From Prevotellaceae bacterium (GTDB lineage: Bacteria > Bacteroidota > Bacteroidia > Bacteroidales > UBA932): a stretch of 43,522 bases of DNA. Location: NCBI GenBank assembly GCA_031290835.1, contig JAISLN010000203.1, positions 1 through 43,522 of the forward strand, read 5' to 3'. Under the pieces are notes generated by a model. The model had not been told where the DNA came from. It saw nothing but the letters and a program-made list of their open reading frames with translations, and searched no databases. Below are positions 5,541-19,136 of this stretch, in pieces (position 1 is the stretch's first letter; the number at the start of each line of letters is the position of its first letter). Made by a program: the position numbers and the translations under genes.

Positions 5541-5830
5541 TTTCTATTGATATTATTTCCCTACGGGAAATCGGGAACAAGAGAGACGCCGCTTTCTATT
5601 GATATTATTTCCCTACGGGAAATCGGGAACAAGAGAGACGCCGCTTTCTATTGATATTATTTCCCTACGGGAAACCGGGAACAAGAGAGACGCCGCTTTC
5701 TATTGATATTATTTCCCTACGGGAAACCGGAGCGAAGCGGAGCTCGGCGAAGCCAATTGAGAAAGAGAGAGACGCCGCTTTCTATTGATATTATTTCCCT
5801 ACGGGAAACCGGAGCGGAGCGGAACCAATC
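5541..5830. repeat. Tandem array of ~52-bp palindromic repeat units (TTTCTATTGATATTATTTCCCTACGGGAAAT...AACAAGAGAGACGCCGC)
   Basis: CTATTGATATTATTTCCCTACGGG starts at 5544, 5596, 5648, 5700 and 5782 (period 52, 52, 52, then 82 because of an insertion containing the 35-bp element). Confidence 0.95.
5721..5755 (+). repeat. Dispersed 35-bp element copy 1 (GGGAAACCGGAGCGAAGCGGAGCTCGGCGAAGCCA)
   Basis: 34/35 identical to 12707-12741. Confidence 0.9.
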
Positions 5831-8482: not shown

Positions 8483-8682
8483 GGTGAAGAAATTTTGAAT
8501 TAAAGAAATGGTGAAATTGTTAAGCTTGATTTATGGTTAAAGGTTGTAATGGTGTTTAAATGGGGTAAAAATGAGGTTTTCGCTGCCTCCTTTTTCAGGC
8601 TGATTTTCGGAAGAAAAATATCGCCGCAAAGCTCGGCGACATTTGGCGCTGCCTCTTCCAAACTCCACAGGGACGACACTTT

Positions 8683-8826
8683 ATTTTTTGAAAAAAGTAT
8701 CGTCCCTGCGAAAGCTGGAAATAGAAATAGAAATTTTGAATTTTAAATTTTGAATTTTGAATTGCGCAAGGCACGACGCTTTGCGCAATTCAAAATTCAA
8801 AATTTCAAATTCAAAATTTCAAATTC
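8683..8826. repeat. Composite intergenic repeat: AGGGACGACACTTT hairpin followed by long AT-rich hairpin (AATTTTGAATTTTGAATTGCGCAA ... TTGCGCAATTCAAAATTCAAAATTT)
   Basis: Inverted complementarity read directly. Confidence 0.8.
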
Positions 8827-8830
8827 GGGG

Positions 8831-11800
8831 TTAGAATTTGGTTATTTTTCCGGTTTTGCCGTTGGCTTTTACGATGTAGGTACCGGCGGGCAAGGCCGAA
8901 ATATTTACCACTGCCTGACTACCTGCCGCGCTAACGCTATAAATGCCCATGAGCGAACCGCTCACGCTGTAGATTTCTACTTTGCCGCTGCCGGACAGGT
9001 TTTCGATGATCAGCAGGCCGTTTGCAACGGGATTCGGGTAGATGCGCAGCGCGGATGCGTCCAGCGAGCTTACGGCAGTTACCTCCTCTTCCCATTTGGC
9101 GTAGAACGCTTTGTTGCCGGTGCTGCCTTGCGGTATTTCGGTAATAGCGTTGCCCGTGCGCTGGGCGTTGTCGTACCAGCCGGCAAAGGTGTAGCCTGCT
9201 CTCGTTGTGGCGGGCAATACCAGCGCTGGGCTTTCGATGGTGTATGAGGTGTCGGGGATAGCGACGCCGCTGAGCTCGTTGTAGGTAACGGTGTAGCGTA
9301 TGGCCTCCGATTTTGCCCATAGCTCCTTATCGCCGGAGCTTCCTGCCGGAAGTGCAGCAAGGCTTTCGCCCGTGAGCTCGGCGTTGGCGTACCATTCAAC
9401 GCTGTAGCCTATTGCCTGCGATGCGGGCAGCGCTACCGTATCTTCGATGGTGTAGGTGATGGTGGTGTCGGCAAGGCCTGCAACGCCGGCGGCATGGTAG
9501 GTAATGGCGTACTGCACGGCAGCCCATTTTGCCCAAAACGCCTTATGGCCTATGCTTCCCGTCGGAATTTCGGTAACGGCTTCGCCCGTGAGCTCGGCGT
9601 TGTCGTACCAGCCGGCAAAGGTGTAGCCGGTTCTTGTCGCAGTAGCCGGCAATACCACTGCTTCGCTTTCGAAGGTGTATGAGCTGTCGGGGATAGAGTC
9701 GCCTCCGTTTTCGTTGTAGGTAATGGTAAACTCTAAGGATGAGAGCTGCCATTTGCCCCAGTACTCCTTAGCCCCCGTAGTGCCCTGCTGAATTATAGCG
9801 TCGGCGTCGCCCGTAAAGTCGGCGCTGCTGTACCATCCTACAAAGGAGTAGAACTCCCTTTCGGGAATGGGCTGCTTGAAGTCTGCATTGGTAACATCGT
9901 ATTCGGCGTATATGGTGGTGTCCGTCTCCTCGGTCAGCGCGTAGTGGTAGGTAACGGCAACAACCTTTTCTTCGCCGGGTGCGTGGGCGCCTCCGGTGAG
10001 AATTTTTACGTACTCAACCTCCACATCGGTGCTCGCCGTGTTTTGCGATTTGCCGAAGAAGAGGTAGGAATCTTCGCTCTCGTAGGGAACGTAGGTATCT
10101 TCCTCGTACAAAAAGAGGTCGTCCAGGTAGAAGTTGCACCAGCCGCTCCATTCGGTAAACATCCTCAGGGTATGGTTGGCTGCGGTGGTGCTAAAGGTAA
10201 TGGACTTCCTTGTCCAGCTGACGTACTTGGTGGAAATCTCCTCCTTCCAGAGCGGGAGGTCGCCGTTGGACACGTTCAGCATGCCCCTGTCGGGGTAGCC
10301 GGCTCCCTTTAGCCAGAACACAAAGGTGTAGGTTTTGTTTGCCTCCAGCTCTTTCTCAAAGTTGATGTTTACGCGGTAGGCTTTCGGCAGCGTGGTTTCC
10401 GGTACCTCGCTGGCAATTCCCTCGAACTCGCGCGCAGGGCCTCTTTCGTTGAGGTAGGATACGCGCAGCGCCTTGCTGCCGCTGTGCGCCCACTGTATGC
10501 CGGTATCTTCGGCTCCTTCGGCATTTTTCTTTCTGTCCTGCAGGCGTACGTAGGATTTCCACACCTCGCTCCACGCCACAGGGTAGTTGTCATTTTGGTT
10601 TTCGCTGCCGGACGCCAGCGCCCACACGTAGGGGTTCCCCTCGTTATCTATCGTATCGTTTTCAAAGTCGCCGTTGGCAATTAGGTTGGTTTTGCCTGCT
10701 ATTTGGGGGTCCACTGCGCCGGTTACTTCGTACAGCACGAGGTCGTCTAAGTAAATGTTAAACCAGCTACCGTATCCTTCGGTGTAGAGGTGCAGAATAG
10801 TATCGCTTTCTGTCGCGGTGAAAAACAGGTCGGCGTTAGCCCAGACGTTGTTGTTATTTGCCAGCCTATGTCCCCAGATAACAGAGTCGGCGCCCGACCC
10901 GCTTAGCTTCACCTTCAGCCACCCAAGGTCCGGCCATTTCGGGCTGCGATGCCAGAAGTTGAAGCGGTAGGTCTTGCCGGGCTCCAGCTTCTTTGTGAAG
11001 TCCATTTTGCCGCCGCCGTTGCCCAAGGAGGAAAACCGCAGCGAAGCGGCGCCGCTGTGCGCCCACCACAGGCTGTCGCGCTTGTCATTCACTGAGCCCG
11101 TTTGGTCGTCCCATTTGTCGTGCTTTTGAATACGAACTTCTCCGTTCCAGAGGTCATTACGGCCTGTCGGTGTGTTCTGCGTGATTTGGGTTTCATCGCT
11201 TATTGTCCACTGGTAATAGGTACCGTCGTTGTTTACGGTATCGTTTTCAAAGCTACCGTTTTCAATCAGGTTTACGTAGCCTTCGTGGAAGACCGGCTCG
11301 ATAATGCCGTTCGGAATGGAGCTGTTGACGCCAAAGCTGTGGCGCTCGCGCAAAATGATGTTGTCGAACGGGGTGCTGATGTCTTTTTTGCCATCACGAG
11401 TCCAAGACGGGAACTCAAAGCGAACGGATTGCCTGACAGTAGGAGTGTCCGGCGTGGTAAAGTTGTGGTTGTGCGCCATCCACTGAACGTCATTTGCGCC
11501 TCCAAACGTGATGTTATCATTACGGTCGTCCTTCTCAGTAAGTGTTCCCAGCTGATCGTTGTAGAAAACGCCCAAATCGCGCCACGCCCACGGCTCCGGC
11601 GCTGCGCGGCGGCGGGTAATGGAAATTTCGTAGTCTGTGTTGGGCTTAACGGGAAACGGGCGGGTGCGAAACGCTTCACGCTCGCCAAAAGGCTTGGTGT
11701 GGTCCGTTACTTTTCCGTCGCTGCTCGCCTCCAGCGCGTAGCTGCCGGCGTAAACCTTGCTCGAATCGTCTATCCGCCGCAGGGTGCCGTTGCTCAGGAA

Positions 11801-12400
11801 GTCCGGAAATTCTTCGTCCTCAAATCCTCCGTTTTCTACAATGTTGTCGAACTTGAAGGTGGAGAGGGCAAACGAGCCGATTTTTTCGCCGTCGCGGTAC
11901 ACGTCCACGCTGCCCGAGGGCTTTACCGCGAGGCGGTAAACGTGAAATTCGTTGTCGCCTGTCAGCCCGCTTGCAATGGTTTGCGTAGCTTTCAGCGGGT
12001 CGCTCTGGTTGGTCAGGAAGGTGTCGGCAATGGTTACGCGGAAGCCTTTTCCGCTGTTGTCGTAGCCCTGGATGTTGAACGAGCCTTTTTTGGCCACCTT
12101 CAGCTTGGCCTTCAGGTCAATGGTGTAGCCCCTGTTGAGGTCTAAGCCCGGGTTTAGCTTGTACCAGCCCAGCTGCGAGTAGAGGGTGTCGCTGTTCACG
12201 GAGGTGAGCTTCAGCACGCCTCCTGTCGTATCCAGCGCTACCGGCGCGGCAATGGGGTTCACGGAGCTATCGAGCCTCCACTCGCTCCAGCCCTGCGTGG
12301 TTGGCAGCGTGCCGCCTGTGTAAAGGGCCAGCGGCTGTGCCCATGCCGCTACGCCTGTGCAAAGGGTGGCGGCAAACAAAATGGTTTTTGTCTTTTTCAT
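8831..12400 (-). CDS. Large multi-modular secreted/surface protein: N-terminal concanavalin-like region, repeated CBM-like (CBM4/9-type) modules, four InlB B-type (Listeria-Bacteroides) repeats, T9SS sorting domain
   Basis: 1189 aa; signal peptide; duplicated NLIENGSFENDT.../NLIANGDFENDT... modules; repeats of ITYN..GG..IPDSSYT..S.AVVLPATATRTGYTFAGWYDNAELTGEAVTEIPTGSIGHKAFWAKW; C-term IYPNPVANGLLIIENLSGSGKVEIYSVSG..LPAGTYIVKANGKTGKITKF. Confidence 0.88.
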   Translation of the reverse strand: MKKTKTILFAATLCTGVAAWAQPLALYTGGTLPTTQGWSEWRLDSSVNPIAAPVALDTTGGVLKLTSVNSDTLYSQLGWYKLNPGLDLNRGYTIDLKAKLKVAKKGSFNIQGYDNSGKGFRVTIADTFLTNQSDPLKATQTIASGLTGDNEFHVYRLAVKPSGSVDVYRDGEKIGSFALSTFKFDNIVENGGFEDEEFPDFLSNGTLRRIDDSSKVYAGSYALEASSDGKVTDHTKPFGEREAFRTRPFPVKPNTDYEISITRRRAAPEPWAWRDLGVFYNDQLGTLTEKDDRNDNITFGGANDVQWMAHNHNFTTPDTPTVRQSVRFEFPSWTRDGKKDISTPFDNIILRERHSFGVNSSIPNGIIEPVFHEGYVNLIENGSFENDTVNNDGTYYQWTISDETQITQNTPTGRNDLWNGEVRIQKHDKWDDQTGSVNDKRDSLWWAHSGAASLRFSSLGNGGGKMDFTKKLEPGKTYRFNFWHRSPKWPDLGWLKVKLSGSGADSVIWGHRLANNNNVWANADLFFTATESDTILHLYTEGYGSWFNIYLDDLVLYEVTGAVDPQIAGKTNLIANGDFENDTIDNEGNPYVWALASGSENQNDNYPVAWSEVWKSYVRLQDRKKNAEGAEDTGIQWAHSGSKALRVSYLNERGPAREFEGIASEVPETTLPKAYRVNINFEKELEANKTYTFVFWLKGAGYPDRGMLNVSNGDLPLWKEEISTKYVSWTRKSITFSTTAANHTLRMFTEWSGWCNFYLDDLFLYEEDTYVPYESEDSYLFFGKSQNTASTDVEVEYVKILTGGAHAPGEEKVVAVTYHYALTEETDTTIYAEYDVTNADFKQPIPEREFYSFVGWYSSADFTGDADAIIQQGTTGAKEYWGKWQLSSLEFTITYNENGGDSIPDSSYTFESEAVVLPATATRTGYTFAGWYDNAELTGEAVTEIPTGSIGHKAFWAKWAAVQYAITYHAAGVAGLADTTITYTIEDTVALPASQAIGYSVEWYANAELTGESLAALPAGSSGDKELWAKSEAIRYTVTYNELSGVAIPDTSYTIESPALVLPATTRAGYTFAGWYDNAQRTGNAITEIPQGSTGNKAFYAKWEEEVTAVSSLDASALRIYPNPVANGLLIIENLSGSGKVEIYSVSGSLMGIYSVSAAGSQAVVNISALPAGTYIVKANGKTGKITKF
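9080..9990 (-). repeat. In-gene repeats encoding InlB B-type modules
   Basis: Repeated coding of TFAGWYDNA.L/RTG.A.TEIP.GS.G.KAF.AKW within the 8831-12400 CDS. Confidence 0.85.
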
Positions 12401-12554
12401 AATCTGTAAAAATTAGAACGTTAAAAAAAAATAAATAAAGAATGGAGCTTGAGAGATGTAATCGGAGATTTACATCGTGCTGCACGTTGCAGCATTTTTT
12501 TTGCGCTAAGGCTATCGGGAGCCCTCGCCCTAAATGTTAGCATTGCGTTTTTCA

Positions 12555-12700
12555 TAGCGGTTTTTTTTTTGATGCTTGCGTGATTTTTTTTTTTGATACC
12601 TGTGTGATTTTTTTTGATGTTTGCGTGATGTTTTTTTGATGCCTGCGTGATGTTTTTTTGATGTTTGCGTGATGTTTTTTTGATGCTTGTTTGAGCTGTG
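12555..12700. repeat. Short tandem repeat, ~22-bp unit GATGYYTGCGTGATGTTTTTTT, about six degenerate copies
   Basis: gatgcttgcgtga / gatacctgtgtga / gatgtttgcgtga / gatgcctgcgtga / gatgtttgcgtga / gatgcttgtttga, each followed by a T-tract. Confidence 0.9.
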
Positions 12701-12706
12701 ATTTGC

Positions 12707-12741
12707 GGGAAACCGGAGCGAAGCGGAGTTCGGCGAAGCCA
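12707..12741 (+). repeat. Dispersed 35-bp element copy 2
   Basis: GGGAAACCGGAGCGAAGCGGAGTTCGGCGAAGCCA; 34/35 with 5721-5755. Confidence 0.9.
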
Positions 12742-12892
12742 GCCGGACAAATTCGCTACGATTGCCCGTAGGGTGGCGGACACAGTAAATCGCGTAACAG
12801 CGTTTTGTCGAAAACGGAAGCATTGATAATTTGTATTAAGTGCTATGCAGCACTTAATTTTTACTATCATTACTGCCCAATAGAATCGGTCA

Positions 12893-13068
12893 AGTCCCGC
12901 AGGGACGGCACTTTATTAACCGTAGGCTTTAGCCTACGGATTTTAGCCTGCGGCTTTAGCCTACGGCTTTAGCCTGCGGACACGCTATGCTCTCGTGCTG
13001 TAGCCATTACCCTCTCTCCATCCGTAGGCTAACGCCTACGGTTAATAAAGTGCCGTCCCTGCGGGACT
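12893..13068. repeat. MITE-like element: 48-bp near-perfect inverted arms around an ~80-bp core with further AGCCTRCGG palindromes
   Basis: Left arm 12893-12940 agtcccgcagggacggcactttattaaccgtaggctttagcctacgga; right arm 13021-13068 is its reverse complement with one mismatch. Confidence 0.92.
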
Positions 13069-13136
13069 GTCCGTGTGGAGAGGGGATTTTGAATTAGGCT
13101 AACGCGCTACAATCCGTGCTTTGCGCAATTCAAAAT

Positions 13137-15566
13137 TTAGAATTTAGAATTCAAAATTTCCCCGTTTTCTAGCATTTTTATAAAAAAACCGCCCACAACC
13201 GATCGCGCCTGAAATCCCCGCTGGTGCGGTCGGTCGGTAAAATACCAGTCGGAGAGCGGCACGCGGTCGGGCGTTGTGTTGGCAAAGTTGTGGAGGGGGC
13301 GGATAAATTGCTCAAAGGTTGCCTTGTTGTCGGCCAGCGTGGCCGTCCAGACAATCCAGTCGGCCTTTGTGTAGGTTGCCCGGTTGTCCAATGGCAGCCC
13401 GTAGGCGTTTTGGCGGGTCAGGTAGTAGGCCACCTCCGTTTGCGCCACGCTGCTGGGGAATATATTCAGGTTCAGGAGTTTGTCCCAAACCAGATTGTAC
13501 TTTTGGCTCCATGTTCCCGGCTTGTCAAAGGTGAGGCGGTAGTGGTCGCCGTCGTTGGCCATTTTGACCCACTCCTGCGCCATGTTTTTTGCCTTTTGCG
13601 TGTATTCGTCGGCCACCTCCTGCTTGCCGAGCATGGCGGCTAAGCGTCCGTAGGAGGCAATGCCGAGAATGGCTTTTACCGACAGGTTGGTGTTGTGCGC
13701 AAAGTGTCCTGCAAAATCGTCGGTGCAGAGCTGGTTTTCGGGGTCAAGGCCTTTTTCCACCAAGTAGTTAGTCCACGTGGTGAGCACGTCCCAGTGTTTT
13801 TCCGCATAGCGCGCGTTTCCCTCGCGGTCGGCAATGGCGGCCGTGATGATGAGCATGTTTCCGCTTTCCTCCACGGGCATGTCGCCGCCGTAGGTTTGTC
13901 CGTTGGCTATGGGGTAGGTGCCTACGTCGTGCGCGGCAAATGGTTTTGGCCATTTTCCGCTTTCGCTGTAGTAAAAGATGTGATTGAGCAATCCCTTGCA
14001 CAGCTCCGGGTTGTAGAGCAGGAAGAGGGGTGCTGACGGGAAGGTTATGTCCACCGTGCCGATAGAACCGTTGCTGAAGTTTTCTTTTGAGAGGAAAAGG
14101 AGGTCTCCGTTGGGGGCTTCCACGAGCTTATGCGCTGCAATCGCCTGCCGGTAGGCCAGCGCGCAGAGTTCGGCGTACTCCTTTCCGCCCGCTTCGGCGG
14201 CTTTTTGCATCAGCTCGGCGTCGAAGCGGCTGCACGCGGCTACGACCTTGTCGTACTCCCGGTTCGCCTTGCCGAATTGTGAAACGATGTTTTCCTTTCC
14301 CGAGCGGTTCCAGTAGGGGCGCAGGTTTTCGCCAAAGTACCGGATGGAGTAGAGGTCGTCGTAGCCTACCATGATTTTGTCGGCAGCTTTTGTTGCCACC
14401 CGGAATTGCTTTTCCAGCTTCAGCAACGAGCGAGGGCTGTCGCTTGTCAGCGTGGATATCCATCCTTTTTCGGCCGCCATGTAGAAGTATCCCCAGTCGA
14501 TGCGCAGGTCGTCGCCTTTTTTGGCGAGTACAGCCTGCTCTTTGGTTCCTGTTTTCACAAACACCAAGTTTTCCTGCTCAAATCCGTCGCAAACGGTTTG
14601 CTGGTAGGGCGTATTGGTAGCCCACTGCGAGGAGGCTTCAAACGATAGGGCTACGTCGTGAGGCTGCCCGTCGGCGGAGGTCAGCTCGCAGGCGATGTAG
14701 CTCACCGGCCGCGCCAGCAGCTCTAGGTTATCCATCAGCAAGGGCGAAGCGAACGTCAGCTTCAGGTTGACCTTTCCGCAGGCAAACGTATAGTGCGTTT
14801 GCGTGGCCTGCACATCTACCGATTGCTGCACGGCGGCTTGGGCGTATCGGACGCTGTTTTCCTTTTCCGCATAGAGCCCAAAGTCAATCAGCCCGTTGGC
14901 TACGGGGTTGCTGCAATGGGCTGCAATAAGGTTTTGCCCCTCCTGCAGCAGCTTTGCCGCCTCCTTGGGGAGCTTAAAGAGCTTGTTTTTGTTGCAGCAT
15001 CCCACCTCCAGCACTTTTTGGCCGTTGATGTAAAACACGGCGTCGTCGTCGTTGGAGTACTCCAGATATACGTCTCTCCCTACGTAGCTTGGCGGCACGT
15101 TGACCAAGCGCCGCACCCATATTTTTTGCTCCATCCAGTCGGTTTTTGCCACCGGCTCCTTGTGCCGGGAGATGGTGCCAAAGGCGCCGTTTCCGTTTTT
15201 CCACTTGGCGTCGTCAAAGTCGGCGGTTATCCAGCCGGCGGCGGGCTCGGTGGTGGTATATTTTCCCGGCCATGGTTGCTGCTCCGAGTTGGGTGCAATG
15301 GGCTCCAGCGCCGGCTTTTCCTTGCCCAGGAAGCGAAACGTTTTGCCGTCCACCACCGCTACGCCGATGAGCGGGAAGTCTTTGCCCGTCCAGTGCTTTA
15401 CCGGGCTGTCGTACAGCTTGTCGGAAAACGACCACGCGGAGGTGTAGGGGTCAATGGTAATCAGGGGAACGGCTGGCGCTCGCAGGGTGCTTGCGGTGTG
15501 CTCCGCTCCGGTGGATTGGCAGGCGACAAAAAGCGCCATAACAGGTAGTAGGGTAATTTTTTTCAC
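13137..15566 (-). CDS. DUF4965/DUF5127 (glutaminase A-like) lipoprotein with inserted galactose-binding-like module
   Basis: 809 aa; lipoprotein-like signal (MALFVACQS); RAPAVPLITIDPYTSAWSFSDKLYD, GNMLIITAAIADREGNARYAEKHWDVLTTWTNYLVEKGLDPENQLCTDDFAGHFAHNTNLSVKAILGIASYG, YNLVWDKLLNLNIFP. Confidence 0.88.
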   Translation of the reverse strand: MKKITLLPVMALFVACQSTGAEHTASTLRAPAVPLITIDPYTSAWSFSDKLYDSPVKHWTGKDFPLIGVAVVDGKTFRFLGKEKPALEPIAPNSEQQPWPGKYTTTEPAAGWITADFDDAKWKNGNGAFGTISRHKEPVAKTDWMEQKIWVRRLVNVPPSYVGRDVYLEYSNDDDAVFYINGQKVLEVGCCNKNKLFKLPKEAAKLLQEGQNLIAAHCSNPVANGLIDFGLYAEKENSVRYAQAAVQQSVDVQATQTHYTFACGKVNLKLTFASPLLMDNLELLARPVSYIACELTSADGQPHDVALSFEASSQWATNTPYQQTVCDGFEQENLVFVKTGTKEQAVLAKKGDDLRIDWGYFYMAAEKGWISTLTSDSPRSLLKLEKQFRVATKAADKIMVGYDDLYSIRYFGENLRPYWNRSGKENIVSQFGKANREYDKVVAACSRFDAELMQKAAEAGGKEYAELCALAYRQAIAAHKLVEAPNGDLLFLSKENFSNGSIGTVDITFPSAPLFLLYNPELCKGLLNHIFYYSESGKWPKPFAAHDVGTYPIANGQTYGGDMPVEESGNMLIITAAIADREGNARYAEKHWDVLTTWTNYLVEKGLDPENQLCTDDFAGHFAHNTNLSVKAILGIASYGRLAAMLGKQEVADEYTQKAKNMAQEWVKMANDGDHYRLTFDKPGTWSQKYNLVWDKLLNLNIFPSSVAQTEVAYYLTRQNAYGLPLDNRATYTKADWIVWTATLADNKATFEQFIRPLHNFANTTPDRVPLSDWYFTDRPHQRGFQARSVVGGFFIKMLENGEILNSKF

Positions 15567-15701: not shown

Positions 15702-15960
15702 CGCATCTTCCGCATCCCGTAGGGATGCGTCTCTCGGTAGAAACGTCGCTCCGTCGTCGCATCTTCCGCATCCCGTAGGGATGCGTCTCTCGGTAGAAAC
15801 GTCGCTCCGCCGCATCTTCCGCATCCCGTAGGGATGCGTCTCTCGGTAGAAAGGTCGCTCCATCGTCGTATCTTCCGCATCCCGTAGGGATGCGTCTCTC
15901 GGTAGAAACGTCGCTCCGTCGTCGTATCTTCCGCATCCCGTAGGGTAGGGTGTGCAAACC
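15702..15960. repeat. Tandem palindromic array, unit ~53-56 bp: CGCATCTTCC-GCATCCCGTAGGGATGC-GTCTCTCGGTAGAAACGTCGCTCCGTCGT
   Basis: Unit starts at 15702, 15758, 15811, 15867, 15923. Confidence 0.95.
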
Positions 15961-18640: not shown

Positions 18641-18758
18641 TTGTGGAAATTTTGAATTTTAAATTTTGAATTTTGAATTGGCTTCGCCGAACTCCGCGGC
18701 GCGACGCTCCCAAAAAAAGTGTCGTCCTTGCGGGACTTTGCACTCCGCCGCCGCTCTT

Positions 18759-18960
18759 GCATCCCGTAGGGGATGCGTCTCTCGGTAGAAACGACAAACC
18801 TCTCCTCTTCTTTGCATCCCGTAGGGGATGCGTCTCTCGGTAGAAACGACAAACCTCTCCTCTTCTTTGCATCCCGTAGGGATGCGTCTCTCGGTAGAAA
18901 CGACAAACCTCTCCTCTTCTTTGCATCCCGTAGGGATGCGTCTCTCGGTAGCAAGGTTGC
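18759..18960. repeat. Tandem palindromic array, unit ~54-55 bp: GCATCCCGTAGGG(G)ATGCGTCTCTCGGTAGAAACGACAAACCTCTCCTCTTCTTT
   Basis: Unit starts at 18759, 18814, 18869, 18923; linker identical within this array but different from the 15.7-kb array. Confidence 0.95.
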
Positions 18961-18990: not shown

Positions 18991-19136
18991 GCATCCCTAC
19001 GGGATGCAAAGAGAGCGGGGGGCAGGGCTTTTCTACCGAGAGATAATCCCTACGGGATTAGCTGGCGCCCTCAACTCTACGGGCTTTTCTACCGCCAGCT
19101 CAACCCTACGGGATTAGCTGGCGCCCTCAACTCTAC
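18991..19136. repeat. Mixed palindromes of the same family in opposite orientation plus direct repeat CCCTACGGGATTAGCTGGCGCCCTCAACTCTAC (two copies, the first extended by GGG)
   Basis: GCATCCCTACGGGATGC at 18991-19007; TTTTCTACCGAGAGATAATCCCTACGGGATTA ending 19060; direct repeat ~19048-19080 and ~19103-19135. Confidence 0.88.

Follow-up and report, generated by a model that had tools for sequence, protein, structure and literature searches.

A 176-bp inverted doublet of two-hairpin, REP-like units in a Prevotellaceae genome and its probable link to a Y1 transposase of related bacteria

The element described here occupies positions 12893-13068 of the window, that is, of the whole 43,522-nucleotide stretch of Prevotellaceae DNA that was analysed. 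It is located between a gene encoding List_Bact_rpt repeats with a T9SS tail (8831-12400, minus strand) and a gene for a GtaA/DUF4964/DUF5127 glutaminase-like protein (13137-15566, minus strand), so that the genes on either side are in tandem orientation and not convergent. A 149-aa open reading frame at 12421-12870 was considered as a further gene and rejected, having no Pfam match and overlapping simple repeats. The same intergenic gap carries tandem repeats of GATGTTTTTTTGATGCNTGCGT at 12560-12700, upstream of the element. The features belonging to the element and its relatives in the window are as follows.

8666-8711, no strand assigned: H1-linker fragments forming a degenerate, miniature inverted pair
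12772-12893, plus strand: upstream module, recurring at 95-97% identity beside the unit clusters C165, C160, C95 and C138 and once more where contig C21 ends
12893-12941, plus strand: left REP-like unit, with H1 at 12894-12906, linker GGCACTTTAT, TAA at 12917-12919 and H2 at 12920-12939
12942-13019, no strand assigned: core separating both units, its right part acacgctatgctctcgtgctgtagccattaccctctctccat being common to other paired genomic copies
13020-13068, minus strand: right REP-like unit, an inverted copy with H2 at 13022-13041 and H1 at 13055-13067 and one mismatch against the left arm
18718-18737, minus strand: degenerate solo unit consisting of H1 and the start of the linker, with GTCCCGCAAGGAC at 18724-18736 (one mismatch)

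An earlier note on this DNA had described near-perfect inverted arms of 48 bp, two smaller palindromes in each arm and further repeats in the core, and all three observations were borne out. The arms measure 49 nt each, are 98% complementary with a single mismatch, and are spaced 78 nt apart. Each arm constitutes one unit, composed of the hairpin H1 (GTCCC-GCA-GGGAC), a 10-nt linker, the trinucleotide TAA and the hairpin H2 (CCGTAGGC-TTTA-GCCTACGG), while the core carries AGCCTRCGG half-repeats, with additional H2-like half repeats in its left part. When the window was scanned for a hairpin, a short linker, TAA and a hairpin beginning with CC, only the two arms were recovered. As for the related fragments that the note had reported near 18711 and 8683, the former is a real solo remnant, and the latter proved to be the degenerate small inverted pair listed above.

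Several other repeats are present in the window. A second palindromic repeat, GCATCCCGTAGGGATGC..TCTCGGTAGAAACG, forms arrays at 15736-15910, 18784-18902 and 19028-19093 and resembles a canonical GTAG-type REP; GGTAGAAACG, allowing up to one mismatch, has 11 matches against 2.3 expected. A third repeat family is represented by a repeat of about 36 bp (the GGAAACCGGAGCGAAGCGGAGTTCGGCGAAGCC region) at 12706-12741 and 5720-5755, with about 18 genomic copies. Furthermore, A+T-rich TTTTGAATTTTAAATTTTGAATT runs at 8715-8830, 18646-18680 and 13086-13165 recur beside many intergenic repeats of the genome.

Folded as single-stranded DNA, each arm forms exactly H1 and H2 (-12.8 and -13.8 kcal/mol), a fold equalled by at most 1 of 200 shuffled sequences, and for the whole 176 nt the fold has z-scores of -15 (DNA) and -15.7 (RNA). 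Such stability, together with the roles in termination and mRNA stabilisation hypothesised for REPs elsewhere (PMC3733652), would suit a strong bidirectional intrinsic terminator or an mRNA-stabilising hairpin between two genes, as the note had also proposed. This proposal was not supported: there is no T-tract 3' of the hairpins, terminator-like matches do not exceed those in shuffled sequences, and the flanking genes are in tandem. By crude gene calls, the 74 unit clusters surveyed across the family lie between tandem genes in 43 cases, divergent genes in 26 and convergent genes in only 5. A terminator as the primary nature of the element is thus very unlikely, and terminator action would at best be a side effect. 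A search of Rfam families gave no match to the element, the sole match in the window being an RNase P located elsewhere.

The host assembly, a MAG of 2.69 Mb in 315 contigs (87% complete), contains 61 H1 cores (47 exact and 14 with one mismatch), compared with two matches to a reversed-pattern control. About seven other places resemble the inverted pair, whole or mostly, at 73-93% over the aligned part, and units were also found solo or in direct tandem runs with a period of 70-80 bp. These copies are undercounted, since a number of contigs start or stop inside a unit. Unit midpoints fall inside open reading frames of 130 or more amino acids in 13% of cases, compared with 72% of random points, which places the family predominantly in intergenic DNA. 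A CRISPR reading of the tandem runs was rejected, as the spacers separating the units are nearly identical. The final ~35 nt of the upstream module (..CTGCCCGGTAAAGTCGGTCAA) occur next to further clusters, and the recurrence of this module beside other clusters indicates that some copies were moved or duplicated along with adjoining DNA. The flanks of 12893/13068, for this copy only, show no direct repeat or target duplication. In the unit-free relative G002 the same gene pair lies ~233 bp apart, compared with ~765 bp in the window, although this is a diverged species. An exact empty site, which the note had suggested looking for, was not found in relatives, those sharing the gene being too diverged and the G002 spacer alone being informative; the parallel search for further full-length copies succeeded, with the pair-like places given above and many copies in relatives.

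A transposase with matching ends, likewise suggested earlier, was found in relatives of the host. It is a Y1 (HUH) transposase of ~149 aa, bracketed by window-type units in nine genomes; the clade emerged from a search that used the 149-aa protein of L264, an intact copy, as query. The eight near-full-length proteins of this nine-gene clade share 66-83% identity, and their hosts comprise two genera of the host family, Azobacteroides, Symbiothrix, a Planctomycetaceae MAG and a Kiritimatiellota MAG, with a partial gene in another Bacteroidales MAG. The proteins match PF01797, with sub-cut-off matches to NF033573 (IS200/IS605, just under) and NF047646 (REP_Tyr_transpos) and weak PDB matches to solved IS200-like transposases. 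Every one of the nine clade genes has units within 1.5 kb, a feature seen at none of the 29 remaining distinct Y1 loci from these searches. For instance, in L263 two units are followed by the Y1 gene, here a frameshifted copy, and two inverted units; in L264 the gene is followed downstream by three complete units and one truncated unit of the variant GTCGC-GCA-GCGAC; and in L270 (G004:C153) the gene is bracketed by window-type units. At L270 1085-1480, directly 5' of the transposase gene, there is also a long degenerate (ACACGGGC)n-like run, by which the open frame of the gene is lengthened to 297 aa.

Several clade genes run into a truncated unit, with the stop codon TAA at, in or beside the linker (L300, L303 and L310, ...TAATAAAGTGTCGTCCCTGCGGGAC), and to judge by these sequences the 3' end of the gene and the repeat are fused. 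The gene-bearing form can therefore be described by the order H1-linker-TTAA, gene, TTAA-linker-H1; on this reading the element of the window has the same ends, with H2...H2 replacing the gene. Stem covariation was also pronounced, with 129 two-sided changes compared with at most 59 in 300 shuffles (one example being GTCGC-GCA-GCGAC beside its own Y1 gene); the set was collected via the linker, so that linker conservation is not to be read from it.

Within the host, the Y1 transposase genes C299 and C78 were considered as mobilisers and rejected, neither being flanked by window-type units, and the cognate gene is absent from the 87% complete host assembly. C299, the host's only full-length Y1 gene, is 37% identical to the cognate clade. 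It (L285 2013-2195, G000:C299) adjoins an inverted pair of different two-hairpin units, ..TGGA, TAA, CCCCGTGC..GCACGGGG. In the same genus, L267 1319-1959 (G007:C63) holds a disrupted Y1 gene from a different subfamily with flanking GTCCCGTAGGGACGGAATGTAGGTAGAAA palindromes, apparently a GTAG-type REPtron.

These findings bear on two further explanations. The element could be a classical MITE, which would have arisen by deletion from a DDE transposon and would show 48-bp terminal inverted repeats as well as a target-site duplication. It does have inverted arms, many copies, an intergenic position and no open reading frame. However, the gene found between these ends encodes a Y1/HUH enzyme (PF01797) and not a DDE one, units also occur singly or in direct tandem runs that repeat every 70-80 bp, which is not expected of full terminal-inverted-repeat elements, and 12893/13068 lacks a flanking duplication. 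The strict MITE reading fails because of the enzyme type and is highly improbable; the earlier proposal of a non-autonomous mobile element is supported by the many copies and by the transposase with matching ends, which is a Y1/HUH single-strand transposase of the RAYT/IS200 kind. Alternatively, the units might be passive repeats that owe their spread to recombination and replication slippage, the Y1 gene having merely been captured nearby. The many copies in tandem runs and a host genome without the cognate gene would agree with this, but chance capture explains neither the presence of units at all nine clade genes and none of the 29 others, nor the fact that related Y1 genes carry separate units built in the same way, and we regard it as scarcely probable.

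The preferred reading is that the 176-bp element represents an inverted doublet of REP-like units (REPIN/BIME-type), part of a dispersed family that would be moved by a cognate Y1 transposase, to which we assign a probability of about 0.85. Copy number, intergenic placement and the clade of unit-bracketed Y1 genes argue for a doublet of RAYT/REP type over a terminator or a DDE MITE. The doublet is real, multicopy, of REPIN kind and probably mobile, and is a variant that has a transposase branch to itself. Counted against this reading are the lack of a GT[AG]G foot and of a target duplication, the frameshift in the L263 gene and the divergence of the G002 species; the missing exact empty site and the absence of the cognate gene from the host assembly weigh on mobility, which we infer.

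REP/REPIN/BIME systems with RAYTs (TnpA-REP; E. coli, Pseudomonas, Stenotrophomonas) share with the present family short palindromes in high copy number, intergenic location, frequent inverted pairs, and a single Y1 transposase gene flanked by its own units with a PF01797 match. They differ in that here each unit has two hairpins, a conserved ..TAA rather than GTAG stands at the H2 foot, the enzyme belongs to another Y1 subclass, and the whole set crosses phyla. No unpaired GT[AG]G was found at the hairpin foot, where TTAA or ATAA precedes H2 and variable AA precedes H1. GTAG was rejected as an H2 foot and is not a conserved motif, because it sits within the H2 stem and is altered to GTAT in many copies. 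The unit length of 46-49 nt falls within the 21-65 nt expected of a REP as a short dispersed palindrome. Since the defining GT[AG]G feature is lacking, the family is outside the GTAG REP super-family, though it would work like a member. CGTC-tagged REPs (PMC3733652) are likewise palindromes without GTAG, and the reverse strand of the window unit reads CGTCCC.., but GTC is here paired in the H1 stem, whereas in CGTC REPs the tag is unpaired and the stem begins with A-T pairs; moreover, no transposase is known for CGTC REPs (PMC3733652), in contrast to the window family. Elements of the IS200/IS605 group share the HUH/Y1 superfamily and hairpin ends; the present family differs from them in its symmetric inverted pairs, in having dozens of copies without a gene in each genome, and in the low copy number of the enzyme gene.

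Closely related among described enzymes are those of TnpA-Y1 subclass 1.2 (PMC6006769), with which the cognate proteins share a length of ~149 aa, the motifs Y---Q--HH (YIINQQEHH) and DHVH, and occurrence in Bacteroidota; a difference is that in the cognate proteins the residue after W is G or S instead of Q. YIINQQEHH or YIINQQKHH is present in 7 of the 8 near-full-length proteins, the eighth being frameshifted ahead of the motif, so that on this tyrosine motif the enzymes would be placed in subclass 1.2. In the 2018 survey (Quentin et al.), this subclass had no REPs and terminal hairpins were generally absent, the automatic REP search being anchored on GT[AG]G (PMC6006769). The gene described here, with multicopy hairpin units bracketing it, departs from the "no associated REP" description.

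H1-linker-TAA-H2 was sought in the DNA next to 47 distinct Y1 genes, TAACC being the sole sequence requirement, and the architecture turned up at 24 of them. Altogether, 65 elements lay within 450 bp of a Y1 gene (63 kb), compared with one in the other 78 kb. Unit sequences vary by Y1 lineage, for instance CTGCCTGAAAGGCAG, ..TTTTCA, TAA, CCGCAGGTC..GACCTGCGG in one and AACGCCGAAGGCGTT, ..ATATGAA, TAA, CCCCGAGC..GCTCGGGG in another. On the Y1 tree the architecture is clustered (4 changes vs 16 in shuffles), mainly in one of the two parts divided by a weakly supported split; in the other part, some twelve Y---Q--HH genes are without it. As an anchor, TAACC gave 118 matches compared with 1-4 for other five-base anchors, in 717 kb of loci that were picked for carrying the window unit. 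Many H1 loops have the form GNA. GNA loops form unusually stable DNA mini-hairpins, which fits units read as single-stranded DNA without constituting a test of it.

A 16-nt linker motif occurs in 6-101 copies in six genomes of the genus, the window genome included, and in 1-3 copies in three other genera of the same family; it was absent from the sampled same-order genomes of other families, and the reversed motif had zero occurrences across the same genomes. The motif was also found in all 28 loci-derived genomes tested. Among the matches listed for a 29-nt pattern in GTDB genomes were Bacteroidales bearing several family names, Ca. Symbiothrix, Ca. Azobacteroides, at least three Planctomycetaceae MAGs and at least one Kiritimatiellota MAG. 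The exact pattern is missing from IMG/VR, and phage carriage was rejected on that ground. Symbiothrix and Azobacteroides are termite gut symbionts. The bins Mp193 and Th196 are from termite gut samples (PMC7024585), and the form of the remaining bin codes suggests that these are termite samples too.

Mis-binning was rejected as the source of the Planctomycetota matches for the array contigs, because their units share contigs with flagellar genes (fliF, fliG and fliH in L229, with the array ~200 bp from fliH, and fliD in L222) at a G+C content of 0.34-0.45, compared with 0.52 in the window. To our knowledge, Bacteroidales are without flagella. The Planctomycetaceae Y1 contig (L327, 4.7 kb) has two other, non-diagnostic genes and a G+C content of 0.36 that matches its MAG, and the Kiritimatiellota contigs have 0.58-0.59. 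The Y1 clade of the window family has a support of 100/95, and in it the proteins of the Planctomycetaceae MAG and the Kiritimatiellota MAG are nested among those of Bacteroidales; 393 other sampled Bacteroidales genomes yielded no clade member at E <= 1e-45, while positive-control matches reached 1e-98. Judging from these sequences, the repeat and transposase set has apparently moved between bacterial phyla, with termite guts as the setting. For RAYT genes, a history of horizontal transfer together with gene loss has already been proposed (PMC6006769). It seems reasonably likely that a Y---Q--HH (subclass 1.2) branch has its own class of REPs, with two hairpins and a linker ending in TAA, that the two have co-evolved lineage by lineage, and that at least one set has moved among Bacteroidota, Planctomycetota and Kiritimatiellota, apparently in termite guts.

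In the mechanism proposed for the doublet, the unit H1, 10-nt linker, TAA and H2 would be read as single-stranded DNA. H1 and H2 would fold wherever the locus becomes single-stranded, as for instance in a lagging-strand template, and the cognate Y1 (HUH) enzyme, with its one catalytic tyrosine, would bind the hairpins. The conserved linker and TAA at the H2 foot would position the enzyme for cutting and rejoining, and solo units, tandem runs and inverted pairs could thereby be copied or moved into intergenic DNA. The transposase gene would itself be an element of the same design, flanked by H1-linker-TTAA ends and taking the place that H2...H2 occupies in the doublet. The sequences show how the unit is built, how often it occurs, that it is placed between genes, that it is paired with the Y1 gene and that it is present in several phyla. 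Hairpin binding, cleavage, guidance by TAA, copying through single-stranded DNA and movement are steps that we infer, and they are plausible because the TnpA-REP of E. coli cleaves and rejoins its own REPs in vitro (PMC8266576, PMC6006769).

If this reading is true, a function and a substrate would be assigned to a Y1 transposase subclass that is listed as REP-less, and a type of REP would be defined that GTAG-anchored searches miss. The lineage-specific pairs would, in addition, provide a natural series of enzymes and hairpins for studying how such enzymes read folded DNA. Finally, with a gene and its own repeat family present in three phyla of an apparently shared habitat, the invasion of a new genome by a repeat population would become directly comparable.
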